This document shows positions 1-17,448 of a DNA stretch of 54,666 nucleotides, piece after piece. This DNA comes from Candidatus Mailhella merdavium (GTDB taxonomy: Bacteria; Desulfobacterota; Desulfovibrionia; Desulfovibrionales; Desulfovibrionaceae), in the NCBI GenBank assembly GCA_019119045.1, contig DWXS01000060.1, forward strand, positions 1-54,666. The letters run 5' to 3'. Position 1 is the stretch's first letter; every line of letters starts with the position of its first letter. The translations under genes and the position numbers were made by a program. The notes beneath the pieces were generated by a model that was not told the DNA's origin, searched no databases, and saw only the letters and a list, made by a program, of their open reading frames with translations.

Positions 1-1110
1 TTTCTTATGGATATGAATGGCAATATTGTCCATTCTTGGAAAGATCTCGGCAATAACAAGAAATGTTACCTGCTTCCGAACGGCAATCTGCTGAGTATCA
101 GTGAAACCCGGAGTGAAGTTACAGAGTATGACTGGGACGGTAATGTAGTCTGGAATTTTGCCAGTAAACTTGGTCCTCATCACGATGGCCGTCGTCTTGA
201 AAACGGCAACACACTAATTCTGTGCTACGAAAACGTACCTTCCTCAGCTATTAAAGAAAATGTGAAAAATCAAACCACGCAATGGTGGGGAACTCAGGAT
301 CGTGAAAATGCCAAACTGCGTGGCGACACTATCATTGAAGTGAATCCGGAAGGCAAGATTGTGTGGTCATGGAACTCCTCCGAGCATCTCGATCTCAATC
401 GCTATATGCCTCTTACCGGTATGGCTGACTGGACGCACGGCAATACTGTTTCCATTATTCCTCCCAACAAGTGGTATGACGCCGGCGACAAACGTTTCAA
501 GCCGGGCAATATTCTGTATAACCCGCGTCACTTCGATGAATTTGTCATTATCGATAAAGAAAGCGGTGATGTTGTTTGGTCTTTGAAGGGTTTCAAAGCC
601 ATGGGCGGACTCGGTCAATGCCATGAACCGATTATGATCGAAAAAGGTAAGCCCGGAGAAGGCAATATCATGGTATTTGATAACGGCCTGTTCACCCGCA
701 ACGGCTCGCATGCAGCACAGAGTGTTGTGTGGGAAATCGATCCGAGTACGAGCAAGGCTGTATGGCGTTATGTGCCCGCTGTCAGCGGCAATGTCCGCTT
801 CCTCAGCAAGTACAAGGGATCCGCATACAAGATGGATAACGGCAATGTTCTTATTTCTGAAGACTACTCCGGCCGTGTGTTTCAGGTGAAACCGGATGCT
901 GCCCATCCGGATGGAGGTTCTATTGTCTGGGAATATGTGTATCCGTCTATCATTTCCAGAACTACCCTGTATCCGTATGATTATTGTCCCCAGCTCAAGG
1001 CTATGAAGAAGCCTGCCGAACTTAAGGTTTCTCCGCTGGATCCCGGATTCTGGCAGGTGCTGCCTGACGCGGAGCGAAAAGATGGTATTGTCGTTAAAGT
1101 AAGTAAATAA
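1..1110 (+). CDS. Aryl-sulfate sulfotransferase (ASST), 5' end outside window
   Basis: The reading frame is open to the first base of the window, where the residues FLMDMNGNIVHSW line up with an internal strand of the neighbouring ASSTs, so signal peptide and N-terminal domain are missing. The visible part has the repeated propeller elements of the arylsulfotransferase family (DWDGNVVW, ENGNTLI, DNGNVLI). It also has likely active-site signatures: DWTHGN, NKWYDAGDKRFKPGN, GQCHEP and a following FDNG. The family transfers sulfuryl groups from phenolic sulfate esters to phenols in the periplasm. It belongs with the copies at 5568, 7943 and 14164 (NKWYDAGDKRF type) but is the most divergent of them. 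A strong terminator follows at 1206, so it is not co-transcribed with panB. Family assignment is firm; substrate is unknown. Confidence 0.9.
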   Translation, partial: FLMDMNGNIVHSWKDLGNNKKCYLLPNGNLLSISETRSEVTEYDWDGNVVWNFASKLGPHHDGRRLENGNTLILCYENVPSSAIKENVKNQTTQWWGTQDRENAKLRGDTIIEVNPEGKIVWSWNSSEHLDLNRYMPLTGMADWTHGNTVSIIPPNKWYDAGDKRFKPGNILYNPRHFDEFVIIDKESGDVVWSLKGFKAMGGLGQCHEPIMIEKGKPGEGNIMVFDNGLFTRNGSHAAQSVVWEIDPSTSKAVWRYVPAVSGNVRFLSKYKGSAYKMDNGNVLISEDYSGRVFQVKPDAAHPDGGSIVWEYVYPSIISRTTLYPYDYCPQLKAMKKPAELKVSPLDPGFWQVLPDAERKDGIVVKVSK

Positions 1111-1124
1111 CACTGCCGCAGAGT

Positions 1125-1167
1125 GAGTATATCCAGAGCGGACGTATACGTCTGCCCGGATATACTC
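1125..1167. repeat. Nested inverted repeat after ASST gene
   Basis: A perfect 10-bp inverted repeat (GAGTATATCC / GGATATACTC) encloses a perfect 12-bp palindrome GACGTATACGTC at 1141-1152. There is no T-run next to it, and a conventional terminator lies 40 bp further on. It may be a 3' mRNA stabiliser or a regulator site; neither can be decided from sequence. Confidence 0.5.
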
Positions 1168-1205
1168 AAGTTCTCGACTCGGAGCCTCAGCTCTGGCATG
1201 GTCAA

Positions 1206-1249
1206 CCGTCCGGATATCCTTTATATAAGGGGACGCCGGACGGTTTTTT
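1206..1249 (+). terminator. Rho-independent terminator of first ASST gene
   Basis: Arms CCGTCCGG and CCGGACGG are separated by a 22-nt loop and followed directly by six T. It separates the ASST gene from panB. Confidence 0.8.
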
Positions 1250-1282
1250 GTTTCATACCGCGCTCAAACCACGGGGATTGTT

Positions 1283-2125: not shown

Positions 2126-2169
2126 AAAATGACTCCAAGCCGGTGCGGCGGAACGAAGGGGAAGAAGGC

Positions 2170-3036
2170 ATGATCATTACCGGATCCATTGCGGAAGTAG
2201 GCAAACAAGTTAAAGAATGGAAGCTCAACGGATTGTGTGTGGGCCTGGTTCCTACCATGGGATATCTCCACGAAGGGCACGCATCATTGATCGAGAAATC
2301 TGTCAGTCTGTGCGATAAAACGGTTGCATCCGTATTCGTCAATCCCACGCAGTTCGGGCCGGGGGAGGATCTGGAAACATATCCCCGTGATTTCAGTCAT
2401 GATTGTGAACTTCTGAAAAGCAGGGGATGCGACATGGTATTTCATCCCGATGCGGCCGAAATGTATCCGCCGGATTTTGCCACATGGGTGGAAGTTCAGT
2501 CCGACATGCCGAAGCAGCTTTGCGGAAAAACGCGCCCCATTCACTTTCGCGGTGTTTGTACGGTGGTGAATAAATTGTTCAACATCGTAACGCCGGATAT
2601 GGCATTTTTCGGTCAGAAGGATGCACAGCAGCTGGCAATTATCCGCAGGATGGTTCGGGATTTGTCCATGAATGTGGAGATCGTCGGCTGTCCTATCGTG
2701 CGGGAAAAGGACGGTCTTGCCAGATCGTCGCGCAATACCTACCTGAACGAACAGGAACGCGCTGCTGCCCCTGTCCTGTTTCGTTCCATTCAGCATGGGC
2801 GTGAACTCATCAAGAAGGGCGAACGGGATGCCCGGCGTCTGATCGCATCCATGAAGGAGCTTCTTGAAAAGGAAGCTCTGGCCCGTATCGACTATGTCGA
2901 CGCTGTCGATGGCGAGACCATGCTTCCCGTGAATATTCTTGATACGGGTGTTCTTGTCGCCATGGCCGTATATATCGGCAAGACCCGACTGATCGACAAC
3001 TTTACAGTGGACTCTTCCCTGCTTTCAGGGAAGTAA
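2170..3036 (+). CDS. panC: Pantothenate synthetase (pantoate--beta-alanine ligase)
   Basis: PanC joins pantoate and beta-alanine using ATP through a pantoyl-adenylate intermediate. The start is placed at ATG 2170, preceded by GGGGAAGAAGG, rather than the in-frame GTG 27 bp upstream that would add nine unconserved residues. The 288-residue protein has the nucleotidyltransferase HxGH motif in VPTMGYLHEGHASLI, the segment NPTQFGPGEDLETYPR, GKTRPIHFRGVCTVVNKLFN and FFGQKDAQQLAIIRRMVRDL. The KMSKS-like loop is REKDGLARSSRNTYL. It lies in an operon with panB, and the converging kinase gene ends about 225 bp away beyond a pair of hairpins. Confidence 0.97.
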   Translation: MIITGSIAEVGKQVKEWKLNGLCVGLVPTMGYLHEGHASLIEKSVSLCDKTVASVFVNPTQFGPGEDLETYPRDFSHDCELLKSRGCDMVFHPDAAEMYPPDFATWVEVQSDMPKQLCGKTRPIHFRGVCTVVNKLFNIVTPDMAFFGQKDAQQLAIIRRMVRDLSMNVEIVGCPIVREKDGLARSSRNTYLNEQERAAAPVLFRSIQHGRELIKKGERDARRLIASMKELLEKEALARIDYVDAVDGETMLPVNILDTGVLVAMAVYIGKTRLIDNFTVDSSLLSGK

Positions 3037-3118
3037 CAGCCCGTAAGCTGCTGTCTGAGCGTTTCATTCTTTCCGTTGGAGTAATGGACGCATGACGCCC
3101 CAGACAGAGGACATTGAA

Positions 3119-3205
3119 ACGATCGGGAAAGCTCTGAGAGCATACAGAGTTTTCTGATCGAGTCGAATCCGGAGCGGAGCTGTTGTCGTCTCCGCTCCAG
3201 ATTCG
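3119..3205. terminator. Two adjacent stem-loops between convergent panC and kinase genes
   Basis: Hairpin one pairs 3119-3133 with 3146-3160 (CGATC..AAA.CTCTG against CAGAGT.TTC.GATCG). Hairpin two pairs 3164-3179 with 3190-3205 (CGAATC..GGAGCGGAG against CTCCGCTCC.GATTCG). Neither has a long T-run, but their position between convergent genes suggests bidirectional termination or transcript 3'-end protection. Confidence 0.45.
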
Positions 3206-3261
3206 GCCGGAATCTTTTCCGGGAGACTCTGCGAGCTTCCAGAGTGTCGCACAGCTTAGTG

Positions 3262-5325
3262 TCAGGCCGCGCTGTCCGAGCTGATATTTTCCATGGGCTT
3301 GTCATCAGCTTCTTTATCCAGCTCGCAGGGGAATTCCAGAATCATGCTTGCGCCGTTTCCGGGAGCGGAGGAGGCCGTCAGCACACCTCCATGAGCTTCC
3401 ATGATGCGCCGTGAACAGAACAGGCCGAGGCCGAAGCCCTGCGAACCCTTTGTCGTGAAGAAGGGTTCGAAGATTTTATCCATATTTTCCGGCGGAATTC
3501 CTGGGCCGCTGTCGCTGATGGTGAGACGCCCCCATGTCTGCTTGGAACGCTTAAACACTTCTCCCTGAATGGTGATTGTTCCCTTTCCCTGCATACTGGT
3601 CAATGCGTTGAGAAGCAGATTGATGCAGACCTGTTCGAGCAGGATGCGATCGCCGCGCAGGGGCAGGTTTTCCGGCAGGCCGGAAAGATTTGCCTGAACT
3701 TCCTTCATCTGCGGGCGGAGAAAGGAAAGCGCGTCGCGCACGATGTCCGCCGCATTCTGCGGTGTGAGACATATGGTTTGCGGCATGGCAATGTTCAAAA
3801 GTCTTCTGGTGGTGGCCGCTGCCCGCTCCACATTGCGCTGTATGGTTTCCAGCAGATGGCGCATCATGGGATCGCTGCTTTCTTCCTTTGCCACATCCGT
3901 ATTGGCAAGAATGATTCCAAGCGGGTTGTTGATTTCATGAGCAATGCCGGCGGCCATTTTTCCGATGACCGCCAGTCGTTCCATTTCGATAAGTTCTTTC
4001 TCCAGCTGACGCCGTTCCGTGATATCCCGCCCTATACAGCAGAGAAGGGGTTGCTCCCTGTCAGGAGAAGAGAAAGGAAAAACTATGAATTCCATGGTGC
4101 GCTGTTCGTCGGGAACGGGGTGGAGCAGAACTTCTTCTCTGGTGAAGTTGTGTTTGCCCGCCTGATCCAGCATCATACCAAGACAGTCGTTTCCTCGATC
4201 GCAAAGAGCCTGCTTCAACGCCTGCTTTTCCGAGTCCGTGTCGAGGCGGAGAATAAGCTTTGCCGCCTTGTTTGCAAGAACGATGTCGCCGTCCGCGTCC
4301 ACGACGAGCATCATATCGGGAGACATTTCAAAAAGTTCGCGATAGCGCCGTTCCGATGAACGGAGTTTTTGCCGGGTCAGCCGGATCTGGCTGCGGAGAG
4401 TGACAATCCATGCCACGGCCAGCAGCGTGAGCAGCAGAAGCCCCGCAAGAATCGCAAGGATATGTCCTTTGTATGTTTCCCAAAACGGTTCCGGTGCCAG
4501 GGTATTCCCCAGCCATTTCTCGCGCAGCAGCGTAAGTTTCCCGGAATTTTCAAGATGGGCGAGGGCATTGGTAAGATCTGCGGCGAGTTCGGGCGAATCC
4601 GGCCCGAGTACAAGTGTGACGGGAATACGCTCGAGAGAAAGCCCCATGAGCTTGACGTCGTAAAGGTTCATCTGCTGGGCAATATAGGAAGCCACTTCGC
4701 CGGACGGGGCGACAAAGGCGGCAGCCTCGTGCATGGAGAGACGCTGAAGCGCGCTTCTGTAGGAACTGGAAATGAGCGGGATACCGCCGTTTTGCGAAAC
4801 GGTATCCAGAAAGGGATCATCCTTTAAGACAAGTATGCGCTGATTTTGAAAATCCTGCTCGCAGGTGATGTGCGTTTCCGGAGCGCTTACCAGAATACGC
4901 CGGTTCAATCCAAATGGGGTAATCAGGGTGACACGGCCATGATAGGAAACGTCGTTCAGAGGAGCGCCGATGATGAAGTCGAGCGTGCCGTCGTTCAAAC
5001 GTCGGGACAATTCCTCCGGCGAGGCTGAAATAAAACGTACTTCCCTTTTGAGCTTGGCGCCGAGCATGACGCTCAGATCCACGCAAAGCCCCCGAGGACT
5101 GTTGCTGTGGTTATTAAAGAAGGCCAGGGGCGGCAGGCTCCGGGGGATGCCGATAAGCAGACGTTCTCCTCCAAAAGCCGCAGATGTGTGCAACGTCGCA
5201 CACAAAAAGAACAGAACAGACAAGACGAGCTTCCAGCGTTCACCGGCTGATAAGCAGATCTTTGTTTTACTTTGCAAAGCCCGGAGCAGCAGCGTTTCGG
5301 CGAAGCATAATAACTGTTTCAGCAA
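3262..5325 (-). CDS. Hybrid-free sensor histidine kinase with periplasmic SBP_bac_3-like domain
   Basis: The protein has an N-terminal membrane/signal segment (RWKLVLSVLFFLCATLHTSA), then a solute-binding-protein family 3-like periplasmic domain (about residues 55-275, with GIPRSLPPLAF and LDFIIGAPLND). A second membrane helix (about 288-308) leads to a PAS domain (SERRYRELFEMSPDMMLVVD). The phosphoacceptor is His463 in MAAGIAHEINNPLG, and the ATPase domain has NLLLNAL, DSGPGIPPEN, FFTTK and GFGLGLF. No receiver domain is present and no response regulator gene lies in the window. I prefer the TTG at 5325 because AGGAGG lies 9 bp before it; an upstream TTG at 5376 would add 17 residues. It is divergent from the ASST gene at 5568, which has a sigma-54 promoter, so an NtrC-type partner regulating the ASSTs is a reasonable guess. 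Confidence 0.9.
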   Translation of the reverse strand: MLKQLLCFAETLLLRALQSKTKICLSAGERWKLVLSVLFFLCATLHTSAAFGGERLLIGIPRSLPPLAFFNNHSNSPRGLCVDLSVMLGAKLKREVRFISASPEELSRRLNDGTLDFIIGAPLNDVSYHGRVTLITPFGLNRRILVSAPETHITCEQDFQNQRILVLKDDPFLDTVSQNGGIPLISSSYRSALQRLSMHEAAAFVAPSGEVASYIAQQMNLYDVKLMGLSLERIPVTLVLGPDSPELAADLTNALAHLENSGKLTLLREKWLGNTLAPEPFWETYKGHILAILAGLLLLTLLAVAWIVTLRSQIRLTRQKLRSSERRYRELFEMSPDMMLVVDADGDIVLANKAAKLILRLDTDSEKQALKQALCDRGNDCLGMMLDQAGKHNFTREEVLLHPVPDEQRTMEFIVFPFSSPDREQPLLCCIGRDITERRQLEKELIEMERLAVIGKMAAGIAHEINNPLGIILANTDVAKEESSDPMMRHLLETIQRNVERAAATTRRLLNIAMPQTICLTPQNAADIVRDALSFLRPQMKEVQANLSGLPENLPLRGDRILLEQVCINLLLNALTSMQGKGTITIQGEVFKRSKQTWGRLTISDSGPGIPPENMDKIFEPFFTTKGSQGFGLGLFCSRRIMEAHGGVLTASSAPGNGASMILEFPCELDKEADDKPMENISSDSAA

Positions 5326-5487
5326 GAGATCGATCCTCCTGCTTCTGTTCGTAGCCCAGGAAGAGACGACTGACAAGCCGTGTATCTGTGCGGTATTCCG
5401 CTCAATTATAAAAAAAACGCACGGAATATCGCACAGTTTTTTGAGCTAGTTTTTTATTTCTCATTGCTTTTACATACATTTTTCGAA

Positions 5488-5503
5488 CGGTACGTTTTTT
5501 GCT
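5488..5503 (+). promoter_or_regulatory. Sigma-54 (RpoN) type promoter upstream of Tat-ASST gene
   Basis: CGGTACGTTTTTTGCT matches the -24/-12 consensus TGGCACG-N4-TTGCT, with GG at 5489-5490, exactly ten bases, then GC at 5501-5502. Transcription should begin near 5514, leaving a leader of about 55 nt before the GTG at 5568. A sigma-54 promoter implies a dedicated AAA+ activator, not encoded here. Confidence 0.7.
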
Positions 5504-5522
5504 TAAATAAAAGAAAAATGTA

Positions 5523-5567: not shown

Positions 5568-7043
5568 GTGAATCGACGTAATTTTCTCATGGGTATGGCA
5601 GCGACCGCAGGCGTTGCCATGATGCCCCGTATGGGTCGTGCTTTTCCGTCAGTCTTTCCTCACGGAACAACGATCTACAAGCCTGAAAAATGCTGGAGCG
5701 GCTTCACTGTGTTCGGCGTGGAAACAGCCGGCGAAGGTTGCGTGCTCATCGACATGAACGGCAATGTCGTCAAGGAATGGAAGCACGTCAGCGAACTGGA
5801 ACATCCCACCAAGATCCTCAAGGGCGGCTACGTTATGGGAGCCACCCGTCAGAAACCGGAAATGGTCGGCCGTACCTACGGCGACCCCATGTCTGCCGAC
5901 CTCTCCATCTGTGATTTTGACGGCAAGATCGTCCGTAACATTCCTCTCGCCGGTATGCACCATGACTATCAGGTTCACAGCAGCCCCACCGGCTACTACA
6001 GCCCGACTCAGGACGTGCTGTTCGAACCCGACGAAAATATTCTGGTACTCTCGCACCTGTTCACCACTCCCGAAGACAACGGGTACACGCTGACCGCCCG
6101 TTCTCCTCTGGACGACGACTACATCTTCGAAGTGGACAAGAACAATAAGATCGTCTGGGATTATCGCTTCAGCGATCACTTCGACGAAATGCCCTTCGAT
6201 GACGATTTCAAGAAAACCATGTTCAAGTACCCCACTTGGCAGGTGACCCGTACTCCCGGCGTCAAGGCTGCGGACTGGATTCACTGCAACTCCATGTCCA
6301 AGCTCGGCCCGAACCACTGGTATGATGAAGATCCGGTGAAGCATTCCTGGGCCCACCCTGACAACATCATCGTATCCAACCGCCAGACCCAGACCAGCTT
6401 CATCATCGACAAGAAAACGAAGAAGATCGTCTGGCATATCGGCCCGGACTACTACAAGGATTCCGTGTGGTATCTGAACGGCGAACCTCAGAAGGGACGC
6501 GCTCTCAGCCGTCTCGGACAGATCGTCGGTCAGCATCATACGCACATGATTCCCGCCGGACTGCCCGGAGCGGGCAACATCATGATTTACGACAACGGCG
6601 GCTATTCCGGTTACGGCCCGCGCAACCCCGCCACAGAAACCGGCTGGTCCAACTCCCGGCGCGACTATTCCCGCGTCATCGAGTTCAACCCGGTCACGCT
6701 GGAAAAGGTGTGGGAACATTCTGCCGCCACAATGGGCCTGCGCGAAGGCTACAAGTTCTACAGCGACTATGTCAGCTCCGCTCAGCGTCTGCCCAACGGC
6801 AACACCCTGATCACCAACGGCGCAGTCGGCCAGCTTCAGGAAGTCACCCCCGATCACGAAATCGTGTGGGAATACATCAGCCCCTGGTACAACCCCAGCG
6901 GCAATTTCAACCTGGTGTACCGCGCCTACCGCGTGCCTTACGACTACGTTCCGCAGATCAAGAAGCCTGCCGAATACGAAGTTGTCCCGCCCAAGAATAC
7001 GGAATGGCGTCTGCCCGCCAGCAAGACTGCCTACAAGGCTTAG
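5568..7043 (+). CDS. Aryl-sulfate sulfotransferase with Tat-type leader
   Basis: The 491-residue product starts at GTG 5568 after AAGAGGG. Its leader contains NRRNFLMGMAATAGVAMMP, a twin-arginine signal, whereas the other complete ASSTs here have ordinary Sec leaders. The body is a group A arylsulfotransferase: YKPEKCWSGFTVF, IDMNGNVVKEW, MHHDYQVHSSPTGYYSP, AADWIHCNSMSKLGPNHWYD, QHHTHMIPAG, IMIYDNGG, LPNGNTLITNG and the terminal VPYDYVPQIKKP. The typical GR-FEV segment reads GQLQEV. It is the first gene downstream of the sigma-54 promoter at 5488 and is followed 33 bp later by a secreted HhH protein, so at least these two are probably co-transcribed. Family is certain; donor and acceptor are unknown. 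Confidence 0.93.
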   Translation: MNRRNFLMGMAATAGVAMMPRMGRAFPSVFPHGTTIYKPEKCWSGFTVFGVETAGEGCVLIDMNGNVVKEWKHVSELEHPTKILKGGYVMGATRQKPEMVGRTYGDPMSADLSICDFDGKIVRNIPLAGMHHDYQVHSSPTGYYSPTQDVLFEPDENILVLSHLFTTPEDNGYTLTARSPLDDDYIFEVDKNNKIVWDYRFSDHFDEMPFDDDFKKTMFKYPTWQVTRTPGVKAADWIHCNSMSKLGPNHWYDEDPVKHSWAHPDNIIVSNRQTQTSFIIDKKTKKIVWHIGPDYYKDSVWYLNGEPQKGRALSRLGQIVGQHHTHMIPAGLPGAGNIMIYDNGGYSGYGPRNPATETGWSNSRRDYSRVIEFNPVTLEKVWEHSAATMGLREGYKFYSDYVSSAQRLPNGNTLITNGAVGQLQEVTPDHEIVWEYISPWYNPSGNFNLVYRAYRVPYDYVPQIKKPAEYEVVPPKNTEWRLPASKTAYKA

Positions 7044-7076: not shown

Positions 7077-7403
7077 ATGAAACGCTTTCTCGCCATGCTC
7101 ATCGCCGCCGCCACGTTGACGTTCGGCGGCATGGCCAATGCCGAAGAACTTGCCCCCTTCGACCTGAACAAGGCCACGGTGGAACAACTGATGGCTATTC
7201 CGGATGCCAACATCACGGAAGAACTTGCCAAGGCCATTATCGAGACCTCCAAGAAGACTCCTTTCAAGTTTTCTGATGACCTCATGAAGGTTCCCGGATT
7301 GGACAACAGCACCTTTGAAGCGATCATGCCTGTCGAAGAAAACGACAGCGTGTGGTACGATCCTGATAACGCCGACATGGTTCTCGGCCCCTCCAAGTGC
7401 TGA
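7077..7403 (+). CDS. Small secreted helix-hairpin-helix protein (ComEA-like fold)
   Basis: The 108-residue product begins at ATG 7077, ten bases after AAGGAG (a GTG six bases upstream is too close). A Sec signal peptide ends near GGMANA. The mature part resembles the paired HhH of ComEA-type proteins: DLNKATVEQLMAIPDANI, then ELAKAIIETSKKTPFKFSDD, then LMKVPGLDNSTFEAI. The glycines of the first hairpin are lost. The C-terminal tail is acidic and ends in PSKC with a single cysteine. It lies between two ASST genes, immediately after the Tat-ASST, and another HhH-like gene follows. ComEA binds DNA in transformation, but this protein has no membrane anchor and sits far from comEC, so a DNA-uptake role is doubtful; an accessory or scaffold role with the ASSTs is speculation. 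Confidence 0.85.
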   Translation: MKRFLAMLIAAATLTFGGMANAEELAPFDLNKATVEQLMAIPDANITEELAKAIIETSKKTPFKFSDDLMKVPGLDNSTFEAIMPVEENDSVWYDPDNADMVLGPSKC

Positions 7404-7409
7404 TTCTGC

Positions 7410-7471: not shown

Positions 7472-7792
7472 ATGAATATTAAAGCAGTGCTGTCTGCAAT
7501 CGCGCTGACCGCCGTGTTTACGGCTCCGGCCATGGCTGCCTCCTTCAGCTTCAACCGCGCCGATGCTGACCGTATGGTCAACTTCGCCAAGGAAGAAGGC
7601 ATTTCCCTGCCCAAGGATGTGGCGGAAAATATCGTGAAATATCGCAGCGAAGGCCATCAGTTCCTCACGGAAGACGACCTGGCCAAAGTGCCCGGTATGA
7701 CTCCTCAGCTGCTCATGATTCTCAGCCCTGAAGAAACCGGAACTGACCTGCTCTTCAATCCTGAAGGCAGCTCCGGCATGAAGGCCTACTAA
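7472..7792 (+). CDS. Second small secreted helix-hairpin-helix-like protein
   Basis: The 106-residue product begins at ATG 7472, preceded by AAAGGAG, and has a clear Sec signal peptide (AIALTAVFTAPAMAAS). The mature region contains one recognisable HhH unit, PKDVAENIVKYRSEGHQF, then LTEDDLAKVPGMTPQLLMIL, similar in layout to the second half of the gene at 7077, so the two look like diverged paralogues. The C-terminus is short and uncharged (GSSGMKAY). No catalytic residues can be named. The next ASST starts 150 bp downstream. It is probably exported with the ASSTs; its partner is unknown. Confidence 0.83.
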   Translation: MNIKAVLSAIALTAVFTAPAMAASFSFNRADADRMVNFAKEEGISLPKDVAENIVKYRSEGHQFLTEDDLAKVPGMTPQLLMILSPEETGTDLLFNPEGSSGMKAY

Positions 7793-9505: not shown

Positions 9506-9568
9506 AGCGCAGATTTGTCGCATATGTTGCGGTCGTCGGGAGAAGAAATTCCTGACGGGGAGGGGAAA

Positions 9569-10966
9569 ATGCGTTTTCTGAAGACTCTGGCACTGGGATT
9601 GGGTGCCGTCTGTTTCTGCGCGGGTTCTTCACTTGCAGTGGAAACGTTGAGTACTCCGACGGGAGTTCATGTATGGAACAAATACGGCGCGTATGACGGC
9701 TATACACTGCTGTCGCCGAACATGACCAACGATGTGTACCTCATCGATATGAAAGGTGATGTTGTCCATACCTGGCACACAGCCGGAAAACCCGGCCTGT
9801 ATGCGGAACTATTGCCCAACGGCAATCTTTTGCGCGGGATCCGCTACGATCCAAAATATGTGCCTTTCGGCGGCGTTTCCGGAGGTGTGCAGGAAATTGA
9901 CTGGGACGGAAATGTTGTCTGGGAGCATAAAATTCACGGCCCGCAGGCCAATCAGCATCATGCTTTCAGCCGCATGCCCAATGGAAATACGCTGATTGTC
10001 GCATGGCAATACAAGTCCTATGACGAGGCTGTGGCCAAAGGTCGCAAGAAGGGCACCATTCCTGCAAAGCCGGATCCCGATGCAAAGTATCAGTATGACG
10101 GACTGTGGGAAGACTATATCGTTGAAGTGGACAAGAACGGTAAAGAAGTCTGGGCCTGGCATACCTGGGATCATATCGGCAAAGGCAAGGACAAGCTTGA
10201 TATCAATTACAAGCTGCCCATCGACAATTATTATGGGGATTCCGACTGGGTACACATCAACTGTGTGACCTATATTCCGGAAACGGATCAGATCCTGTTT
10301 ACTTCGCGCAATTTCAGCGAAGTGTTCCTTGTGGACAAATCCAGCGGCAAGATTGCATTCCGCTGGGGCAACCCCACCACCTACGATTCCAAGGCCAAGA
10401 AACCCGGCTGGTGCGATGACGGCGATCAGCAACTGTTTGGTCCTCATGATGCCACATGGCTGGGCGACGGACGCATCATGCTGTTTGATAACGGCTGGAA
10501 CAGGCCGAGTGTAAATCGTTCGCGCGTGATCATTCTCAACAGCAAGACCGGCGAAGTCGAGTGGGAATACCGGGCACAGAATCCCAACGGTTTTTATTCC
10601 GCCTATCAGGGCGCGGGCCAGCTTCTGCCCAACGGTAATGTGCTGATCACCTCCACCAATACCGGACACATTTTTGAAGTGACAAAGGGCAAGAAGCCCC
10701 ATGTGGTGTGGGAATACGTCAGCCCCTGGACCCTGAAAGGCCCCGTGGCGCTGCTGGAGGATTCCCATTCCTTCGATGACCCGACCGGTCTGGAAGATAT
10801 CAACATCATGAGCAATTTCGTGCATCGCGCATTCCGCTACGGAAAGGATTATCCCGGCCTTCAGGGAAAGGATCTCTCCAGGGCTCAGACGCTCTTCCCC
10901 GGTGCGCCCAAGTGGTATGAGCTGTGGGATCAGGCCGCTATGCTCAAAGCTGCTGAACTCAAGTAA
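9569..10966 (+). CDS. Aryl-sulfate sulfotransferase, group B (divergent member)
   Basis: The start is ATG 9569, immediately after GGGGAGGGGAAA; in-frame codons further upstream overlap the preceding terminator. The 465-residue product has a Sec leader (LGLGAVCFCAGSSLAVE) and then TPTGVHVWNKYGAYDGYTLLSP. It carries group B features: QQLFGPHDATWLGDG, MLFDNGWNRPSVNRSRVI, FTSRNFSEVFLVD, DWVHINCV and LPNGNVLITSTNTGHIFEV. It lacks the YEAFxGPLG opening of the other three group B members and is intermediate between groups. The next ASST follows after 114 bp with no strong terminator between, so the two may be co-transcribed. Confidence 0.93.
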   Translation: MRFLKTLALGLGAVCFCAGSSLAVETLSTPTGVHVWNKYGAYDGYTLLSPNMTNDVYLIDMKGDVVHTWHTAGKPGLYAELLPNGNLLRGIRYDPKYVPFGGVSGGVQEIDWDGNVVWEHKIHGPQANQHHAFSRMPNGNTLIVAWQYKSYDEAVAKGRKKGTIPAKPDPDAKYQYDGLWEDYIVEVDKNGKEVWAWHTWDHIGKGKDKLDINYKLPIDNYYGDSDWVHINCVTYIPETDQILFTSRNFSEVFLVDKSSGKIAFRWGNPTTYDSKAKKPGWCDDGDQQLFGPHDATWLGDGRIMLFDNGWNRPSVNRSRVIILNSKTGEVEWEYRAQNPNGFYSAYQGAGQLLPNGNVLITSTNTGHIFEVTKGKKPHVVWEYVSPWTLKGPVALLEDSHSFDDPTGLEDINIMSNFVHRAFRYGKDYPGLQGKDLSRAQTLFPGAPKWYELWDQAAMLKAAELK

Positions 10967-11080: not shown

Positions 11081-12523
11081 ATGAAACGCTTAATTTCCTT
11101 TGCAGCAAGTACGACTCTCGCTGTCGTGCTTGCGGCAGGAGGAGCCTCTGCCAACGAGGCATTCAGAGGGCCTCTTGGGGTTCTTACCAATGAAGCAGGT
11201 GTGACGGATGGCTATGTGCTGCTGACGCCGCAGCAGAGTAAAACAAGCTATCTTATTGATAATAAAGGTAATATTGTCAATAAATGGGAAAGCGAGTATG
11301 TCGGCTTCTGGGGTGAATTGAAGGCCGATGGGACTCTCTCACGGCACGGAGTGCTTCCTGAACTCAAAGATACCGGTCTTATTCTGTTCGGCGGCGCCGC
11401 AGGAATCATGGAAGAGTTTGACTGGAACGGCAACAAAATCTGGGAATACAAGATGTATATTCCCGGGAAGGAAGTCTCCCACCATACCTATGAAATCATG
11501 CCCAACGGTAACTATCTGCTGATTGGCTGGGAGTTCAAGAGCTATGATGAAGCCCTTGCCAAGGGAATGAAGCCGACTAAGGATCGTTATCTGTTCAAGG
11601 AAGGCTTTGTTGACGCAAAGAAGCATCTGGACGGAATCTGGCCCGATTTCCTTCGCGAGGTGGATCGCGCAACCGGAAAGACCGTCTGGGAATGGCATGT
11701 GTGGGATCACATCGGAACGGGCAAGAATCAGATTGATATCAACAAGTTCTGTACGGCCAAGGTGTACAAGGCCTATGCCGGGCCGGACTGGACCCATTTC
11801 AACGGTGTGGCTTACAATCCCGATACGGATCAGGTTGCGGTGACCTCACGCAATCTGGCGGAAGTGTACATCATCGATCGTAAGAGCGGTGACATTGTGT
11901 ACCGCTGGGGCAATCCGGCCAATTACGGAGCGGGACTGGCTCCTGCGGGCTATGCGGACGACGGCGATCAGAAGCTGTTCGGCCCCCATGCCCCCGACTG
12001 GCTGCCCAACGGAAATCTTTCCATCATCGACAACGGCGCCCGTCGTCCTTCCGAAAACTACACCCGTGCTGTCGAACTGGATCCGAAGACCAATAGAGTG
12101 GTTTGGCAGTGGACTCCCATGGCGGTAAAGGCCAACGGCAGCAATTTCTATTCCCACTATCAGGACGGTGCGCAGAAGCTGCCCAACGGCAACTGGCTGC
12201 TGACCACAAGCAATGACGGACATGTCATTGAAGTAACCAACGAGAAGAACATTGTTTGGGAACTGGCCAACCCGATCAAGGCCGATCAGATTTACCGGGC
12301 ATCCAATATTCATGGTAAGGGTGGAGACAGTATCCACAAGGCGATACGTTACCCCTCGGACTTCCCCGGATTTGCCGGCAAGAAGATGAAGAGGGAAGGA
12401 AAGCTGCCCAACTGGACATCCACGCTGGCAAAGGATGCCGTTCCTCTGCCCGTGAATGCGGAAGGCAAGCCTGAAACCGTCAAGAAGTATGTCCGCGTCG
12501 TTCCGGCGGCTCTCGAAGAATAA
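11081..12523 (+). CDS. Aryl-sulfate sulfotransferase, group B
   Basis: The ATG at 11081 is preceded by AAGGGAGAG at good spacing; upstream in-frame codons have no binding site. The 480-residue protein has a Sec leader (AASTTLAVVLAAGGASA), then NEAFRGPLGVLTNEAG and DGYVLLTPQQSKTSYLID. Motifs are EVSHHTYEIMPNGNYLL, EWHVWDHIGTGKNQIDIN, GPDWTHFNGVAYNPDTDQ, VTSRNLAEVYIID, LFGPHAPDW, IIDNGARRPSENYTRAVELD and LPNGNWLLTTSNDGHVIEV. The C-terminus carries an extra basic and Pro-rich tail (about 40 residues) not seen in the others. It is a likely periplasmic sulfuryl transferase in tandem with close paralogues on both sides. Confidence 0.94.
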   Translation: MKRLISFAASTTLAVVLAAGGASANEAFRGPLGVLTNEAGVTDGYVLLTPQQSKTSYLIDNKGNIVNKWESEYVGFWGELKADGTLSRHGVLPELKDTGLILFGGAAGIMEEFDWNGNKIWEYKMYIPGKEVSHHTYEIMPNGNYLLIGWEFKSYDEALAKGMKPTKDRYLFKEGFVDAKKHLDGIWPDFLREVDRATGKTVWEWHVWDHIGTGKNQIDINKFCTAKVYKAYAGPDWTHFNGVAYNPDTDQVAVTSRNLAEVYIIDRKSGDIVYRWGNPANYGAGLAPAGYADDGDQKLFGPHAPDWLPNGNLSIIDNGARRPSENYTRAVELDPKTNRVVWQWTPMAVKANGSNFYSHYQDGAQKLPNGNWLLTTSNDGHVIEVTNEKNIVWELANPIKADQIYRASNIHGKGGDSIHKAIRYPSDFPGFAGKKMKREGKLPNWTSTLAKDAVPLPVNAEGKPETVKKYVRVVPAALEE

Positions 12524-12562
12524 AACAGGAAAGTCCGGGACATTGTGTCTCGACAGAATACC

Positions 12563-12585
12563 GTATGGAGCCTTCGGCTCCATAC
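12563..12585 (+). terminator. Perfect 10-bp stem-loop between tandem ASST genes
   Basis: GTATGGAGCC-TTC-GGCTCCATAC is a perfect hairpin that can close with a UUCG-type loop. No T-run follows (AGCGCACAC), so it is more likely an mRNA processing or stabilising element between the genes at 11081 and 12621 than a full terminator. Confidence 0.55.
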
Positions 12586-12620
12586 AGCGCACACTCTCCA
12601 ACGCGAAAAGGATGTTGTGT

Positions 12621-14018
12621 ATGAACCGTATCTTGACTGGATGCCTGGCTCTTGCCTTTCTGGCCACCAGTGCAATGACGGCGACGGCCTATGAAGCTTT
12701 TCAGGGTCCGCTTGGTCTGTTGCAGAAGAAACAGGGCACCTATGAAGGCTATACCCTTCTGGCGCCGCAGAACTCCAAAACAACGTATCTTCTGGATATG
12801 GACGGCAAGGTTGTGAACGAATGGAAGAGCGATTACAGCTGCTTCTATGCCGAACTGCTGCCCAACGGAAACATGCTGCGTCATTCCCGCCTGCCTGATC
12901 GCAATCCCGAATTCGGCGGAGCGGCCGGTCTGCTGGAAGAATTCGACTGGAACGGCAAAAAGGTATGGGAATACAAGTGTTATACTCCCGGCAAGGAAGT
13001 GTCGCACCATACCTTTGAAGTGATGCCCAACGGCAACGTGCTGCTTCTGGTGTGGGAATATCGTTCCTATGAAGACGCCATTGCCAAGGGTCTTGATCCC
13101 AACAAGCGCGGCCGCACCCTTTTCAAGGATGGCATGAAGATCAGCAACGGCTATATGTGCAAAGGCATATGGCCCGACGTAATCCGTGAAGTCGAACACG
13201 GCACCGGCAAGACCGTCTGGGAATGGAAGGTATGGGATCATATCGGAACCACTCCGGACAAGATCGACATCAACGCCTTCTGCGACCTGGGCAACATCAT
13301 GCGCGCCCTGGCCGGGCCTGACTGGACTCACCTCAACGGCGTGGCCTATAACCCCGCAACCAATGAAATCGCCTTCACTTCCCGTAACCTCGGCGAAGTG
13401 TTCATCATCGATTACAAGAGCGACGGCGGCATCAAGTATCGCTGGGGCAACCCCGGCAACTACGGCAAGGGCGATCTTCCCTGGGGTTATGCCAAGGACG
13501 GCGATCAGAGACTGTGGGGTCCCCACGCTCCGGACTGGACGGCTGAAGGCACCCTGTCGATCATGGATAACGGCTGCTATCGTCCTTCCGGCAACTACAC
13601 CCGTGCGGTAGAACTCGATCCCAAAAAGAACGCCGTAGTCTGGCAGTGGACGCCGAAGCTGGCCAAGGCTGCCGACAGCAACTTCTATTCCGCCTTCCAG
13701 AACGGTGCGCAGAAGCTGCCCAACGGTAACTGGGTAATTACCACGTCGTCTCCCGGGCATATCATCGAAGTAACCAAGGATCATAGTATCGTATGGGAAT
13801 ATGTGAATCCCGTCGCCAAGGATAAGGCCTATGCTCTGAGCAACGGCCATGGCGGCAACGGCGATTCCGTACACAAGGCTGTGCGTTACGGCAAGGACTG
13901 GCCCGGCTTCAAGGGTAAGGACATGAGCGCCAAGCGTGATCTCATGCCTGCCGGATCTCCCAACTGGCTTGAAGTTTTCTCCAAGTGTGAAACCGTGCCC
14001 ATGCCCGGAGCCAAGTAA
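12621..14018 (+). CDS. Aryl-sulfate sulfotransferase, group B
   Basis: I chose ATG 12621, eight bases after AAAGGA; an ATG nine bases upstream abuts the binding site. The 465-residue protein has a Sec leader (LTGCLALAFLATSAMTATA) and opens with YEAFQGPLGLLQKKQG. It shares EVSHHTFEVMPNGNVLLLVW, GPDWTHLNGVAYNPATNE, FTSRNLGEVFIIDYKSDGG, KYRWGNPGNYGKGD, LWGPHAPDW, IMDNGCYRPSGNYTRAVELD and LPNGNWVITTSSPGHIIEV with the copies at 11081 and 16045. It is closest to 16045. Codon use is slightly GC-richer than in the upstream copy. The function is inferred from family only. Confidence 0.94.
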   Translation: MNRILTGCLALAFLATSAMTATAYEAFQGPLGLLQKKQGTYEGYTLLAPQNSKTTYLLDMDGKVVNEWKSDYSCFYAELLPNGNMLRHSRLPDRNPEFGGAAGLLEEFDWNGKKVWEYKCYTPGKEVSHHTFEVMPNGNVLLLVWEYRSYEDAIAKGLDPNKRGRTLFKDGMKISNGYMCKGIWPDVIREVEHGTGKTVWEWKVWDHIGTTPDKIDINAFCDLGNIMRALAGPDWTHLNGVAYNPATNEIAFTSRNLGEVFIIDYKSDGGIKYRWGNPGNYGKGDLPWGYAKDGDQRLWGPHAPDWTAEGTLSIMDNGCYRPSGNYTRAVELDPKKNAVVWQWTPKLAKAADSNFYSAFQNGAQKLPNGNWVITTSSPGHIIEVTKDHSIVWEYVNPVAKDKAYALSNGHGGNGDSVHKAVRYGKDWPGFKGKDMSAKRDLMPAGSPNWLEVFSKCETVPMPGAK

Positions 14019-14032
14019 TAAGATAATGAAGT

Positions 14033-14065
14033 AGTGTCCGGTGGGTTTACCCCGCCGGACATACT
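14033..14065 (+). terminator. Stem-loop after ASST at 12621
   Basis: GTCCGG and CCGGAC pair, extended by GGG/CCC toward a TTTA loop and by AGT/ACT outside. ATCTGCTC follows, without a T-run, so termination strength is uncertain. Confidence 0.5.
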
Positions 14066-14163
14066 ATCTGCTCGATAAGAGTTGCGATTGCGCCAGGAGA
14101 GGGAGCGTCGATGTTCCCCGCGCCGGTCGCACGCGGACAGTTAGCGCGTAAAGGATGGGTCGA

Positions 14164-15660
14164 ATGAAGCTATTGAAAACTCTTGCGATCGGAATGGGCG
14201 TAGTGTGCCTCTGTGCGGGGGCGGCGCAGGCACAGACCGATGTCATCCCTGTCGGAACCATTAAATATGATCCCTCCAAGTGCTGGAACAGTTATGTTGT
14301 CCTTTCGGGAAGTTATCCCAAACTGATTGACCGTAATGGCAATCTGGTCAAGGAATGGGACAACCGCGGGGCGGCCGGACAGCCCAACAAGGTTCTTCCC
14401 GGCGGATATCTGCTGACCTCGATTTTCCCGCCCGTCCCCGGTGGATTCCAGGATCAGAGTGCCGTGGCCATTCTGGACTGGGACAGCAACATTGTTCGCA
14501 AGTTTGATAAATGGCGCAAGGTGGAAAAGGGCGATAAAGGGCAGACCGCAGATGCGGACGGTTCCTTCTGGGCTGCCTGTCAGCATCATGACTTCCAGCT
14601 TGAAGGTTCTTCCGTCGGCTATTACGCCCCCGGCATGGAGCCGAAAAAAGACGGCAAGATGCTGATACTTGCACACAATGTTACAAAGAATCCCCGTATC
14701 AACAAGCTGGATATACTTGACGACAATATCTACATCGTTGACAGCAAGGGCGACGTGATCTGGAAGTGGTCCGCCAGCGAGCATTTTTCCCAGTTCGGAT
14801 TCACAGACGCAGCCGTCAACAAGATGCAGAGCCTGAACTGGTACGGCGGCAAGCACGGCGGTGTGGACTGGTTCCATATCAACTGTGCTTCCTGGCTCGG
14901 CCCGAATAAATGGTATGATGCCGGCGACAAGCGTTTCCATCCGGACAACATCATCTGCGACAGCCGCAATACCTCGCATCTGTTCATTATCGATCACGAA
15001 ACCGGCGATATCGTGTGGCAGGTTGCGCCTCCCTTTGTTGGGGCTGATGCCGCTCTGGCTCCGATCACCGGCGTGCATGGTACGCACATGATCCCCAAGG
15101 GACTGCCCGGAGAAGGTAATATTCTGCTCTTCGATAACGGCGGAACCATGCCTGGCGACATGTACGGCGATACGCAGGCCCATGCCTGGAGCCGCATCAT
15201 CGAGTTTGATCCGGTCACCAAGACCCGCGTATGGGAATACTCCGCGCCTGTCATGAAGATTGCCGGCGGACAGCATGGCTACAAGTTCTTCTTCTCGCCC
15301 TATATTTCCATCGCTCAACGTCTGCCCAACGGTAATACGCTGATCGATGAGGGCGCATGCAGCCGCATCTTTGAAGTGACTCCTATGGGTGAAATTGTGT
15401 GGGAATACCGTTCTCCCTATGGGTATTCTGCGGCTCAGAAGGCCAATACCACCTATCGTGCCTACGCCGTACCCTATGAATGGGTACCTCAGCTGAAGAA
15501 GCCTGTGGAAACTCCGGTGACTGCGCCGGTGGAACCCAAAAGCTTCATCATGCTGCCCGACGACAAGGGTAATATCCCCAACTTCAAGCCTGTTCTGGAC
15601 AAGAGCCCTGCGGTGCAGTTTGATGAACCCTGGGTTGTGACCCGTCCTGCCGCGAAGTAG
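14164..15660 (+). CDS. Aryl-sulfate sulfotransferase, group A
   Basis: The ATG at 14164 lies eight bases after AAGGA; the ATG at 14155 overlaps that site and is rejected. The 498-residue product has a Sec leader (LAIGMGVVCLCAGAAQA) and the group A opening QTDVIPVGTIKYDPSKCWNS. It is nearly collinear with the gene at 7943, including WLGPNKWYDAGDKRFHPDN, HLFIIDHETGDIVWQVAPP and VHGTHMIPKGLPGEGN, with main differences at 90-130 and near the C-terminus. The C-terminal strand reads GACSRIFEV. This pair flanks three group B genes, as if a block had been inserted or duplicated. A GNRA-loop hairpin follows at 15700. Confidence 0.94.
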   Translation: MKLLKTLAIGMGVVCLCAGAAQAQTDVIPVGTIKYDPSKCWNSYVVLSGSYPKLIDRNGNLVKEWDNRGAAGQPNKVLPGGYLLTSIFPPVPGGFQDQSAVAILDWDSNIVRKFDKWRKVEKGDKGQTADADGSFWAACQHHDFQLEGSSVGYYAPGMEPKKDGKMLILAHNVTKNPRINKLDILDDNIYIVDSKGDVIWKWSASEHFSQFGFTDAAVNKMQSLNWYGGKHGGVDWFHINCASWLGPNKWYDAGDKRFHPDNIICDSRNTSHLFIIDHETGDIVWQVAPPFVGADAALAPITGVHGTHMIPKGLPGEGNILLFDNGGTMPGDMYGDTQAHAWSRIIEFDPVTKTRVWEYSAPVMKIAGGQHGYKFFFSPYISIAQRLPNGNTLIDEGACSRIFEVTPMGEIVWEYRSPYGYSAAQKANTTYRAYAVPYEWVPQLKKPVETPVTAPVEPKSFIMLPDDKGNIPNFKPVLDKSPAVQFDEPWVVTRPAAK

Positions 15661-15699
15661 CGGTTCAGCGGAATCAAATATGTTCTGAACGGATATCGG

Positions 15700-15723
15700 G
15701 CGGAAGGAAGCAATTCCTTCCGC
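15700..15723 (+). terminator. Stem-loop with GCAA tetraloop after ASST at 14164
   Basis: GCGGAAGGAA-GCAA-TTCCTTCCGC is a perfect 10-bp stem with a GNRA loop, followed by TCTTGTAT. It is a plausible terminator, or a stable 3' end. Confidence 0.65.
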
Positions 15724-15852
15724 TCTTGTATATACTCCGGGCAATATGAGAATTACATTTGGTGTTTAATATTTATTTGTTTTGTAATATGGTAATATCA
15801 TTATATATATTTTTTAAAAAAAACATATAGTTAAAATCTGCGTATAGAATTG

Positions 15853-15881
15853 TCGACATTTTGTTGTAATATGATTATATA
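15853..15881 (+). promoter_or_regulatory. Possible sigma-70 promoter upstream of last ASST gene
   Basis: TCGACA, 17 bases, then TATATA, inside a strongly AT-rich stretch (about 15750-15885) that contrasts with the GC-rich surroundings. The leader to the ATG at 16045 would be about 155 nt. This suggests the last ASST gene has its own promoter. Confidence 0.4.
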
Positions 15882-16044
15882 AAAGGAAAGCCTCTGGTTC
15901 CCCGGTTGTGAAAGCTCATGGCGCTCACGGAAAAGATGACGAACTCGACATCGAGCCGAGCGCGAATTTCCGATACTGTGCTACTCCATAGGTTCAGCTG
16001 CCAGGGAATGAATGCCCTAACCTCATTTTTACAGGAGTGTTCAC

Positions 16045-17448
16045 ATGAATCGTTTAGCCAAGGTTTTTGCTGCGGCTCTCGCCGCGGTGGCACTGGCGGG
16101 GAGTGCGCAGGCCTACGAGGCCTTCAAGGGTCCGTTGGGGCTGTTGCACAAGGCTCCGGGTACCTTTGACGGCTACACCCTGATTGCGCCGCAGCGGGCC
16201 AACATTACTTATCTGATAGACATGGATGGTAATGTGGTTCACGAGTGGAAAAGCGACTATGGATGCTTCTATGCAGAATTAATGCCCAACGGCAACCTGA
16301 TCCGGCATTCCACTCTGCCCGGCGTGCAGCCTGGCTTTGGCGGACAGGCCGGTCTGTTTGAAGAATTCGACTGGGATGGGAAGAAGGTATGGGAATATAA
16401 GAGCTATATTCCCAATGAAGAAGTTTCTCACCATACCTTTGAAGTGATGCCCAACGGCAATCTTCTGATTCTGGTCTGGAAGAAACATTCCTATGAAGAC
16501 GCGCTTGCCAAGGGGCTCAAACCCGACGCTCCCGGCCGCTATCTGTTCAAGGAAGGGTTCAAGCAGGGCAAACAGACCATTGAAGGTATCTGGCCTGACG
16601 TCATCCGGGAAATCGAACACGGAACCGGGAAAATCGTGTGGGAATGGGATGTCTGGGATCACATCGGTACCGGTGCGGATCAGATTGACATCAATAAGTT
16701 TGTTCCCAACCTGAACCGAATCTGGGCCGGCCCGGACTGGACGCACTTCAACGGCGTGGCCTATAATCCCGAGACCAACGAAATAGCCATAACGTCCCGC
16801 AACCTCGCGGAAGTGTATATCATTGATTATAAGAGCGATGGCGGCATTAAGTATCGCTGGGGCAACCCTGCCAACTACGGCAAGGGTAAGGCTCCTGCCG
16901 GTTACGGCGACGACGGCGATCAGAAGCTCTTCGGCCCCCACGCTCCGGACTGGACTGCGGAAGGTACCATTTCCATCATGGATAACGGACATACCCGTCC
17001 TTCCGGCAACTACACCCGCGCCGTGGAACTTGACCCGAAGAAGAACGCTGTTGTGTGGCAGTGGAAGGCTTCCGATGTCAATACTCGTGACTGGAACTAC
17101 TATTCCGCCACGCAGAGCGGCGCACAGAAGCTGCCCAACGGCAACTGGCTGATCACGGCTACGCTGGCCGGTGGCCACACCATCGAAGTTCTGCCTGATA
17201 AGCGCATTGTATGGGAATTCATCAACCCCATGGGCAGAGACAACAAGGTTTATGCCGCTTCCAACGCATATGGCGACGTGAGACAGCTTTCCGTGCATAA
17301 GGCTCTGCGTTATGCCAAGGATGACCCCCGCTTCAAGGGCAAGGATATGAGCGTGAAGCATCCGTTGATGCCTGCCGGTACCCCGGACTGGCGGAAGTTG
17401 CTCGAAGTGAACAATGTGCCGGCCAGCTTCAATCCCGAAAAGAAGTAA
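16045..17448 (+). CDS. Aryl-sulfate sulfotransferase, group B
   Basis: The 467-residue product starts at ATG 16045 after CAGGAG. A Sec leader (AAALAAVALAGSAQA) precedes YEAFKGPLGLLHKAPG and DGYTLIAPQRANITYLID. It shares with 12621 the segments EEFDWDGKKVWEYKSY, EVSHHTFEVMPNGNLLILVW, GPDWTHFNGVAYNPETNE, TSRNLAEVYIIDYKSDGG, LFGPHAPDW and IMDNGHTRPSGNYTRAVELD. Its C-terminal strand reads LAGGHTIEV, with one extra Gly. It is the last of the array, separated from the previous ASST by 384 bp that hold a hairpin and an AT-rich promoter-like region, and closed by a strong terminator. Confidence 0.94.
   Translation: MNRLAKVFAAALAAVALAGSAQAYEAFKGPLGLLHKAPGTFDGYTLIAPQRANITYLIDMDGNVVHEWKSDYGCFYAELMPNGNLIRHSTLPGVQPGFGGQAGLFEEFDWDGKKVWEYKSYIPNEEVSHHTFEVMPNGNLLILVWKKHSYEDALAKGLKPDAPGRYLFKEGFKQGKQTIEGIWPDVIREIEHGTGKIVWEWDVWDHIGTGADQIDINKFVPNLNRIWAGPDWTHFNGVAYNPETNEIAITSRNLAEVYIIDYKSDGGIKYRWGNPANYGKGKAPAGYGDDGDQKLFGPHAPDWTAEGTISIMDNGHTRPSGNYTRAVELDPKKNAVVWQWKASDVNTRDWNYYSATQSGAQKLPNGNWLITATLAGGHTIEVLPDKRIVWEFINPMGRDNKVYAASNAYGDVRQLSVHKALRYAKDDPRFKGKDMSVKHPLMPAGTPDWRKLLEVNNVPASFNPEKK

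Follow-up and report, generated by a model that had tools for sequence, protein, structure and literature searches.

An arylsulfotransferase array in Candidatus Mailhella merdavium, probably one end of a conserved, regulated gene cassette

Among described arylsulfotransferases (ASSTs), the enzyme of Escherichia coli CFT073 (AssT; structures 3ELQ, 3ETT and 4P04) is an exported beta-propeller of the long form, with a solved chain of 571 amino acids (aa) and a disulfide served by DsbL/DsbI. The roles of its residues H252, H356, N358, R374 and H436 are set out in the available portion of a paper on the gut bacterium Sutterella wadsworthensis (PMC10932419). Strain 3_1_45B of that species has 17 asst genes, typically dispersed outside recognisable operons, and the encoded proteins carry the same five residues (PMC10932419, same portion). 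Cpz4 (9KF4/9KF6) belongs to a Streptomyces antibiotic pathway, that of caprazamycin. The physiological role of bacterial sulfotransferases that are independent of 3'-phosphoadenosine-5'-phosphosulfate is poorly understood and their natural substrates unidentified, according to the accessible part of a 2026 review (PMC13426309). The present analysis concerns an array of eight ASST genes at positions 1-17448 of a 54,666-nucleotide stretch of Candidatus Mailhella merdavium. This stretch (the window) is contig C27 of a 3.02-Mb metagenome-assembled genome of 91 contigs that is 87.8% complete.

The array forms one end of a cassette that is conserved and regulated, with small genes for helix-hairpin-helix (HhH) proteins as constant partners. 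On balance, we favour reading the array as the ASST component, multiplied and diversified, of a periplasmic cassette for organosulfate processing that is old and inducible and belongs to the gut genus Mailhella. High ASST copy number was already known; the cassette setting is what is new. The available text on the Sutterella set makes no mention of a cassette of HhH protein, 970-aa protein and carrier (PMC10932419). Searches of the open-licence PubMed Central literature brought up no description of an ASST-HhH cassette, of an array of ASSTs in Mailhella, or of an ASST passing sulfuryl groups to a protein thiol. The system, which would handle sulfated compounds outside the inner membrane, is apparently undescribed.

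All eight reading frames are open, and all exceeded the gathering score of the ASST family PF05935 (24.2 bits) in a profile search, at 68-112 bits each, and all lie on the plus strand. As a sequence-only reading of this DNA had described, they are interrupted only by panBC, a sensor kinase gene (on the reverse strand) and two small genes for secreted HhH proteins. The first ASST is truncated at its 5' end, since the window starts at the first base of the contig. The genes are listed below with the clades of the tree described later and, where given, the equivalents in Ca. Mailhella excrementigallinarum (G017); panB, panC and the SIS gene were typed by Pfam.

1-1110, plus: ASST copy 1, clade A, 5' end missing (PF05935, 68.3 bits; G017 orthologue L020:9393-10841, 89% identity)
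1283-2125, plus: panB, a functionally unrelated insert (PF02548, 380 bits; G017 equivalent L020:10857-11873)
2143-3036, plus: panC (PF02569, 358 bits; G017 equivalent L020:11933-12787)
3262-5376, minus: sensor histidine kinase, divergent from the array (SBP_bac_3, PAS, HisKA and HATPase domains in Pfam)
5488-5503, plus: candidate sigma-54 (-24/-12) promoter CGGTACGTTTTTTGCT, two mismatches, upstream of the ASST at 5568
5568-7043, plus: ASST copy 2, clade C, the "5568 type" and core ASST of the cassette (PF05935, 101 bits)
about 7077-7403, plus: HhH class 1, secreted HHH_3 protein ending in PSKC (PF12836, 40 bits)
7472-7792, plus: HhH class 2, secreted HHH_3 protein ending in Tyr (PF12836, 32 bits)
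7943-9448, plus: ASST copy 3, clade C (PF05935; nearest window paralogue 14164, 73%)
about 9566-10966, plus: ASST copy 4, clade B (PF05935, 112 bits for the open reading frame from 9485)
about 11081-12523, plus: ASST copy 5, clade B (PF05935, tree)
about 12621-14018, plus: ASST copy 6, clade B (PF05935, tree)
about 14164-15660, plus: ASST copy 7, clade C (PF05935, tree)
16045-17448, plus: ASST copy 8, clade B, structure modelled (PF05935)
17608-19470, plus: SIS and glutamine amidotransferase protein, which we take to be GlmS; right-hand boundary of the array (Pfam)

HhH genes lie next to ASST genes far beyond chance. Across the 19 Mailhella genomes, 28 of 56 HHH_3 matches are within 2 kb of an ASST, the remainder being ComEA-like or standing alone. 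An HHH_3 gene is included in 11 of 12 ASST runs (two or more copies with gaps under 6 kb), the exception being a pair on contig C15 of G017. This genome has six PF12836 matches. Five of them have an ASST no more than 0.82 kb away, and for three of the five this neighbour is a dispersed ASST outside the array. In G018, which is assembled as one contig, four of six HHH_3 matches are near an ASST although the near zone covers 1.2% of the genome; as many were near in 295 of 200,000 rotations and in none of 200,000 random placements. The window proteins share with ComEA and other HHH_3 proteins the PF12836 domain after a signal peptide (assigned by eye in both). They differ from ComEA in that the genomic partner is an ASST and that the first protein has a C-terminal PSKC tail; the ComEA model TIGR01259 gives the first 22.1 bits against a cut-off of 152.35 and gives no match to the second at 0.001.

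In all 14 genomes with the pair (10 Mailhella, G037, G351, G091 and G105), PSKC forms the C-terminus of the HhH protein encoded directly 3' of the 5568-type ASST. A structural model of the HhH protein, built from a four-row alignment (pLDDT, the predicted local distance difference test, 77.7), is confident in the core and not in the last four residues, the PSKC tail, which is probably flexible; Foldseek gave no match to this model under an E-value of 0.001. G084 has a gene (L083:17511-17807) for a secreted protein of 98 aa that ends in RPSKC, contains an acidic stretch and shows no recognised HhH. It lies near a gene for a sigma-54 response regulator, 5-7 kb from the 970-aa gene of the cassette. 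The occurrence of the tail without the HhH looks as though the tail might be the functional element. A second, ComEA-like HhH protein with a C-terminal Cys (ending CNC or CTC) is encoded after the cassette's carrier gene in eight Mailhella, G037 and G105, three genes further on in G351, and ahead of the 970-aa gene in G084.

The remaining parts of the cassette were followed by searching 395 genomes of the phylum with the 5568 protein, of which 39 had a match. The closest three outside the genus in this sample (G351, G091 and G105; 52-57% identity) share a block of p192, 5568-type ASST, HhH(PSKC) and a 970-aa protein. A PF03601 carrier comes next in G351 and G105, while the contig of G091 ends inside the 970-aa gene. 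Counting G037, four cassette-bearing genomes outside Mailhella have the ASST-HhH pair, and they come from three other families. An extra ASST adjoins p192 in G351, G105 and G037; none of the Mailhella genomes gave a p192 match to a single query at 1e-10. G084, from a fourth family, has the 970-aa gene and the carrier without HhH(PSKC); an ASST (122 bits) follows 1.5 kb further on. The 970-aa and carrier genes accompany the 5568-type ASST in every case in which the contigs extend far enough. Wherever the 970-aa gene is full length (14 genomes, G010 and G084 included), its product contains CGHC and the carrier gene is directly 3' (14/14). The 970-aa protein is secreted and internally duplicated (22% identity, E 2e-15); no Pfam match was found for three homologues and no NCBIfam match for one. 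The carrier is of the YeiH type and satisfies PF03601 (106.5 against 24.5 bits). In this genome the 970-aa, carrier and response regulator genes occupy one end of contig C48, and the contig breaks off shortly beyond the regulator; no sequence overlap was found between that end and the window start.

Several relatives of these genes were also seen. Contig C15 of this genome (98097-99566; L079:4098-5567) encodes a secreted relative of the 970-aa protein of about 490 aa, with a single in-frame TGA where CGHC has its first Cys (UxxC). Homologues in G254, G230, G340, G111 and G141 have one in-frame TGA each, and these sequences may possibly form a selenoprotein family. In G351, genes for a molybdopterin oxidoreductase and an Fe-S protein adjoin the cassette, and contig C95 (L077) has a 5568-like ASST beside what by eye is a likely binding protein and permease of a tripartite ATP-independent periplasmic (TRAP) transporter. 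Genus g31, of the Mailhella family, has a different operon: ASST, Na_sulph_symp transporter, 528-aa protein without a Pfam match, ASST (G167, L082). An ASST/transporter operon in G393 (L081, also g31) resembles it by eye, and it too differs from the cassette.

Regulatory genes accompany the cassette. Of the 14 genomes that have the ASST-HhH pair, 13 have a homologue of the window kinase close to the 5568-type ASST; the 3.3-kb contig of G091 is without one. A relative of the response regulator is present in 12 of them, in this genome the one on C48. The kinase at 3262-5376 is the probable partner of this sigma-54 response regulator. As in AtoS-AtoC and other NtrC-type systems, the cassette has histidine kinase and sigma-54 response regulator domains and a -24/-12 element. 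It differs from AtoS-AtoC in its SBP_bac_3 sensor, its ASST target genes and its scores, which are below the equivalog cut-offs; the window kinase is AtoS-like in NCBIfam, far below cut-off.

All 10 Mailhella with a 5568-type ASST have a -24/-12 element at the equivalent place ahead of it. The element is exact in G007, G009, G010, G013 and G014, has one mismatch in G006 and has two in G000, G016, G017 and G018; the element of G037 is poor, with four mismatches. A scan of the whole window gave no excess of sigma-54 sites (27 found, 30 expected), and the evidence for the promoter is therefore its conservation. Sites with two mismatches or fewer numbered 71 in 1.32 million strand positions of the examined loci, duplicates and the promoter sites themselves included, which gives about 0.02 expected by chance per 300 bases. 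Such sites were also found at a few ASSTs elsewhere (on C26 of this genome, and at some in G006, G007, G010, G014 and G016). Inverted GTGCGG/CGCAC repeats further upstream, noticed by eye, may be activator sites. The sole exact match to TGGCACN5TTGCW in the window is at 39121-39136 on the plus strand.

The history of the array was examined in a tree of 68 proteins (quick IQ-TREE with the Shimodaira-Hasegawa-like approximate likelihood ratio test). The array is three old lineages joined, plus two local duplication groups. The window copies fall into three deep groups: A (copy 1), B (9566, 11081, 12621 and 16045) and C (5568, 7943 and 14164). Long branches meet at several places in this tree, and its deep placements are less sure than its tips. 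Each window ASST pairs one-to-one with a copy in G017 in identical order, the G017 run having two extra. The order of the eight ASSTs together with panB, panC and the kinase is also the same there, and its recurrence in a second genome shows that the array is not due to chance. Related arrays are found in G006, G016 and the single-contig G018. For the 16045 protein, the nearest named relatives are from an uncultured Mailhella (G006, 93%) and Ca. M. excrementigallinarum (87%). A single clade for the eight window copies was rejected by the approximately unbiased (AU) test (p 1.8e-7), as was one clade for the window and G017 arrays (p 2.4e-77).

The sequence-only reading had singled out 7943/14164 and 11081/12621/16045 as especially close. 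Their identities, 73% and 59-68%, bear this out, the other 24 of 28 pairs being at 29-45%. In the tree the two sets are local duplication groups older than the split from G017. Synonymous divergence (dS) between paralogues is 1.0-3.2 in the nine pairs computed, which is near saturation. Inside the two groups it is 1.0-1.5, and the groups are therefore old. No near-identical blocks were present, the best reported 300-nt block being 84%. The suggestion of a recent local amplification thus holds as to the two local groups and fails as to recency and a common clade. For the opposite case, which the sequence-only reading had named as refuting (each copy closest to a different distant orthologue, without local duplication), the picture is mixed. 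Copies 1, 5568 and 9566 have orthologues in further Mailhella species (9566 in six others of the tree) and no close paralogue in the array, and the other five form the local groups. The ratio of nonsynonymous to synonymous divergence (dN/dS) from the G017 orthologues is 0.034-0.125, so all eight ASSTs have been kept by purifying selection. The most conserved is 5568, with 97% identity to G017 and a dN/dS of 0.034.

The array proteins, at about 450-500 aa, resemble the E. coli enzyme in propeller fold, catalytic residues and periplasmic export. The equivalents of H252, H356, N358, R374 and H436 (numbered from the 3elq alignment and scored in a MAFFT alignment of 68 proteins) are kept in 8 of 8. 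By eye, 5568 has a twin-arginine signal (RRNFLMG) and the other complete copies have Sec-type export signals. These features, the dN/dS values and the spread of identities (29-73%) fit the earlier suggestion of selection for diversified periplasmic sulfuryl transfer. For one member, 16045, modelling supports the beta-propeller fold of known ASSTs (pLDDT 86.4, predicted TM-score 0.87). Its best solved matches in Foldseek are Cpz4 (9kf6/9kf4) and then E. coli ASST (4p04/3elq), with E-values of 1.6e-19 for 9kf6 and 2.2e-15 for 3elq_B and a probability of 1.00; TM-scores by query length are modest, at 0.54-0.56. Cpz4, which is also the only PDB sequence match for the open reading frame from 9485, is 17-18% identical to 16045 in the fold alignment. 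Unlike the E. coli long form with its DsbL/DsbI-served disulfide, 11081 and 16045 contain just one Cys past the signal region, which makes an internal disulfide impossible there. The array genes were all assigned to other families, none to dsb.

Copy number sets part of the genus apart. This genome has 20 PF05935 matches that resolve into 17 open reading frames, 8 in the array and 9 as singletons on other contigs; the singleton on C5 is of the E. coli-like form (340 bits). Of the other 18 Mailhella genomes, 16 have a match. The 137 matches in the genus were deduplicated by hand to 128, some of them fragments at contig ends. The counts are 18 (G017), 17 (this genome), 14, 10, 10, 8, 8, 7, 6, 6, 5, 3, 3, 2, 1, 1, 1, 0 and 0. 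One ASST of G006 has an internal stop. The 12 runs are those of all 23 genomes with matches taken together, and the longest have 10 copies (G017), 8 (the window, cut by the contig end), 8 (G006), 5 (G016) and 5 (G018). Outside Mailhella, 1 of 16 genomes of the same family had a match in the genus-level search. In the phylum sample, where at most four candidates were scored per genome, 8 of 16 further genomes of the family had a match (up to three each), as did 44 of 395 overall. A first look gave 0-6 candidates per genome against 21 here, among 64 genomes listed. The statement that most genomes with the enzyme have one copy is only roughly right. The contrast between these numbers and the range of 0-18 in Mailhella places the ASST amplification in part of one genus.

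Mailhella and its sister genera have been described as respirers of organosulfonates and sulfite, in the parts of two papers available (PMC13219744, PMC10507020). Of the 19 Mailhella, 12 have a DsrA over cut-off, and five (G005, G006, G010, G013 and G014) gave no DsrA or DsrB match at E 0.001. AprA was over cut-off in none of the 19; the best score, 381 against 642 bits in G012, possibly comes from a divergent AprA. All 14 chosen ASST-bearing genomes outside Mailhella have DsrA, 13 of them over cut-off. Since DsrA is common in the phylum, this co-occurrence gives weak support.

Read as an organosulfate-processing cassette, the locus would work as follows. The kinase, with its solute-binding protein (SBP) domain, would read a periplasmic ligand and phosphorylate the sigma-54 response regulator, which would switch on the 5568 operon. 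With an aryl sulfate (or another sulfate) as donor, the exported beta-propellers would accept a sulfuryl group on the His436 equivalent and pass it from this sulfohistidine stage to an acceptor. Differences between copies in donor or acceptor preference would make many host and plant conjugates usable. The HhH protein and the 970-aa CGHC protein would share the compartment of the ASSTs and work together with them; a sulfur oxyanion product would be moved by the YeiH-type carrier. Several observations weigh against this reading. Four of nine dispersed ASSTs are without one or two catalytic residues (R374N on C8, H356Y on C16 and C26, gaps at H356 and R374 on C57, losses only as reliable as the alignment there) and the other five keep all five, so not every relative need be an enzyme. 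Among the window ASSTs only 5568 has a site with two mismatches or fewer in the 300 bases upstream, and control of the other seven thus depends on read-through. The cassette-bearing G006, G010, G013 and G014 are among the genomes without a DsrA/B match. Cassette order is not fixed: in G037, ASST, HhH, p192 and ASST are on one strand, with the 970-aa gene and the carrier divergent on the other side. "Sulfate export" is a family name only, and the Mailhella carrier is far under the subfamily cut-off (50.7 against 232.6 bits for TIGR00698, the YeiH putative sulfate exporter, in G009). That the end of C48 faces the left end of the window is inferred from G017 synteny. Donors, acceptors and substrate diversification of the short ASSTs are guesses, and no biochemistry on them was found.

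The strongest competitor, though still unlikely, is detoxification, in which the ASSTs would sulfate toxic phenols in the periplasm at the expense of gut organosulfates. Known ASSTs do transfer sulfuryl groups to phenols, and this role was proposed for the 17 dispersed Sutterella genes in the available text (PMC10932419). It leaves unexplained the constant HhH protein, the 970-aa CGHC protein, the carrier and the two-component system, as well as the link to sulfur-respiring bacteria. Improbable, and more so than detoxification, is that many of these proteins are non-catalytic propellers with a binding or structural role, for which ASST is a family name only. The residue losses among dispersed copies point that way, and many non-ASST propellers match the 16045 model at lower rank, but the array keeps its five residues throughout despite pair identities mostly of 29-45%. 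Recent amplification for dosage, with tandem and functionally equivalent copies of one gene, agrees with the members of {7943, 14164} and {11081, 12621, 16045} being each other's closest kin within the genome. Their dS, the one-to-one orthologues in G017, the rejection of a one-clade origin and the lack of any block above 84% speak against it, and we regard it as very unlikely. The fragmented and incomplete draft could suggest an assembly artefact or chimera; recurrence of the same array in G017 and of related arrays elsewhere, including single-contig G018, refutes this for the array as a kind and leaves it a negligible chance.

A more specific proposal, organosulfate respiration by way of a protein thiol, is drawn from the C-terminal Cys that never varies, from the CGHC protein and from the sulfite respiration of the hosts; we hold it to be a long shot, slightly ahead of non-catalytic propellers. 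The ASSTs would place the sulfuryl group on the C-terminal Cys of the PSKC-tailed protein, giving Cys-S-sulfonate, from which sulfite would be freed by the 970-aa protein at its CGHC site (UxxC in the shorter relative). The YeiH-type carrier would move the sulfite and DsrAB would respire it, with the array broadening the range of donors. E. coli reportedly converts S-sulfocysteine to cysteine and sulfite, a conversion for which thioredoxins and glutaredoxins are said to have been examined, and this would be a precedent for the last chemical step. If the thiol route were true, a sulfate ester would serve as a sulfite donor without ATP-consuming activation, in bacteria without a recognisable AprA. 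If, as the favoured cassette reading allows, the array processes host or plant aryl sulfates, conjugates of drugs, hormones and polyphenols would be linked to gut sulfide. The fixed partners, the sensor and the recognisable promoter open the role of ASSTs to direct experiments. The Pfam and NCBIfam searches made assigned no function to the proteins with the PSKC tail, to the 970-aa protein or to its relatives that may be selenoproteins.

Some further observations concern the rest of the genome. Among the four ASSTs with lost residues (loci L002, L005, L008 and L009 on C8, C16, C26 and C57), those on C8 and C16 still adjoin an HhH gene. Some long open reading frames (the "fam1" family and others) proved to be antisense frames by Pfam and strand checks, and an idea of RND (resistance-nodulation-division) efflux genes there was dropped. 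The guanine plus cytosine fraction is 0.44 at 48001-50000, against 0.49-0.60 in the other 2-kb blocks of the window. A sulfatase-family gene typed by Pfam (PF00884) at 50167-51780 on the minus strand adjoins a gene for a DctP (TRAP) binding protein (51833-52879, minus). Its product has the motif TVPCR, with Thr at the position of the modified Cys in the sulfatase consensus. This genome has 13 PF00884 matches, the highest number among the 19 Mailhella.

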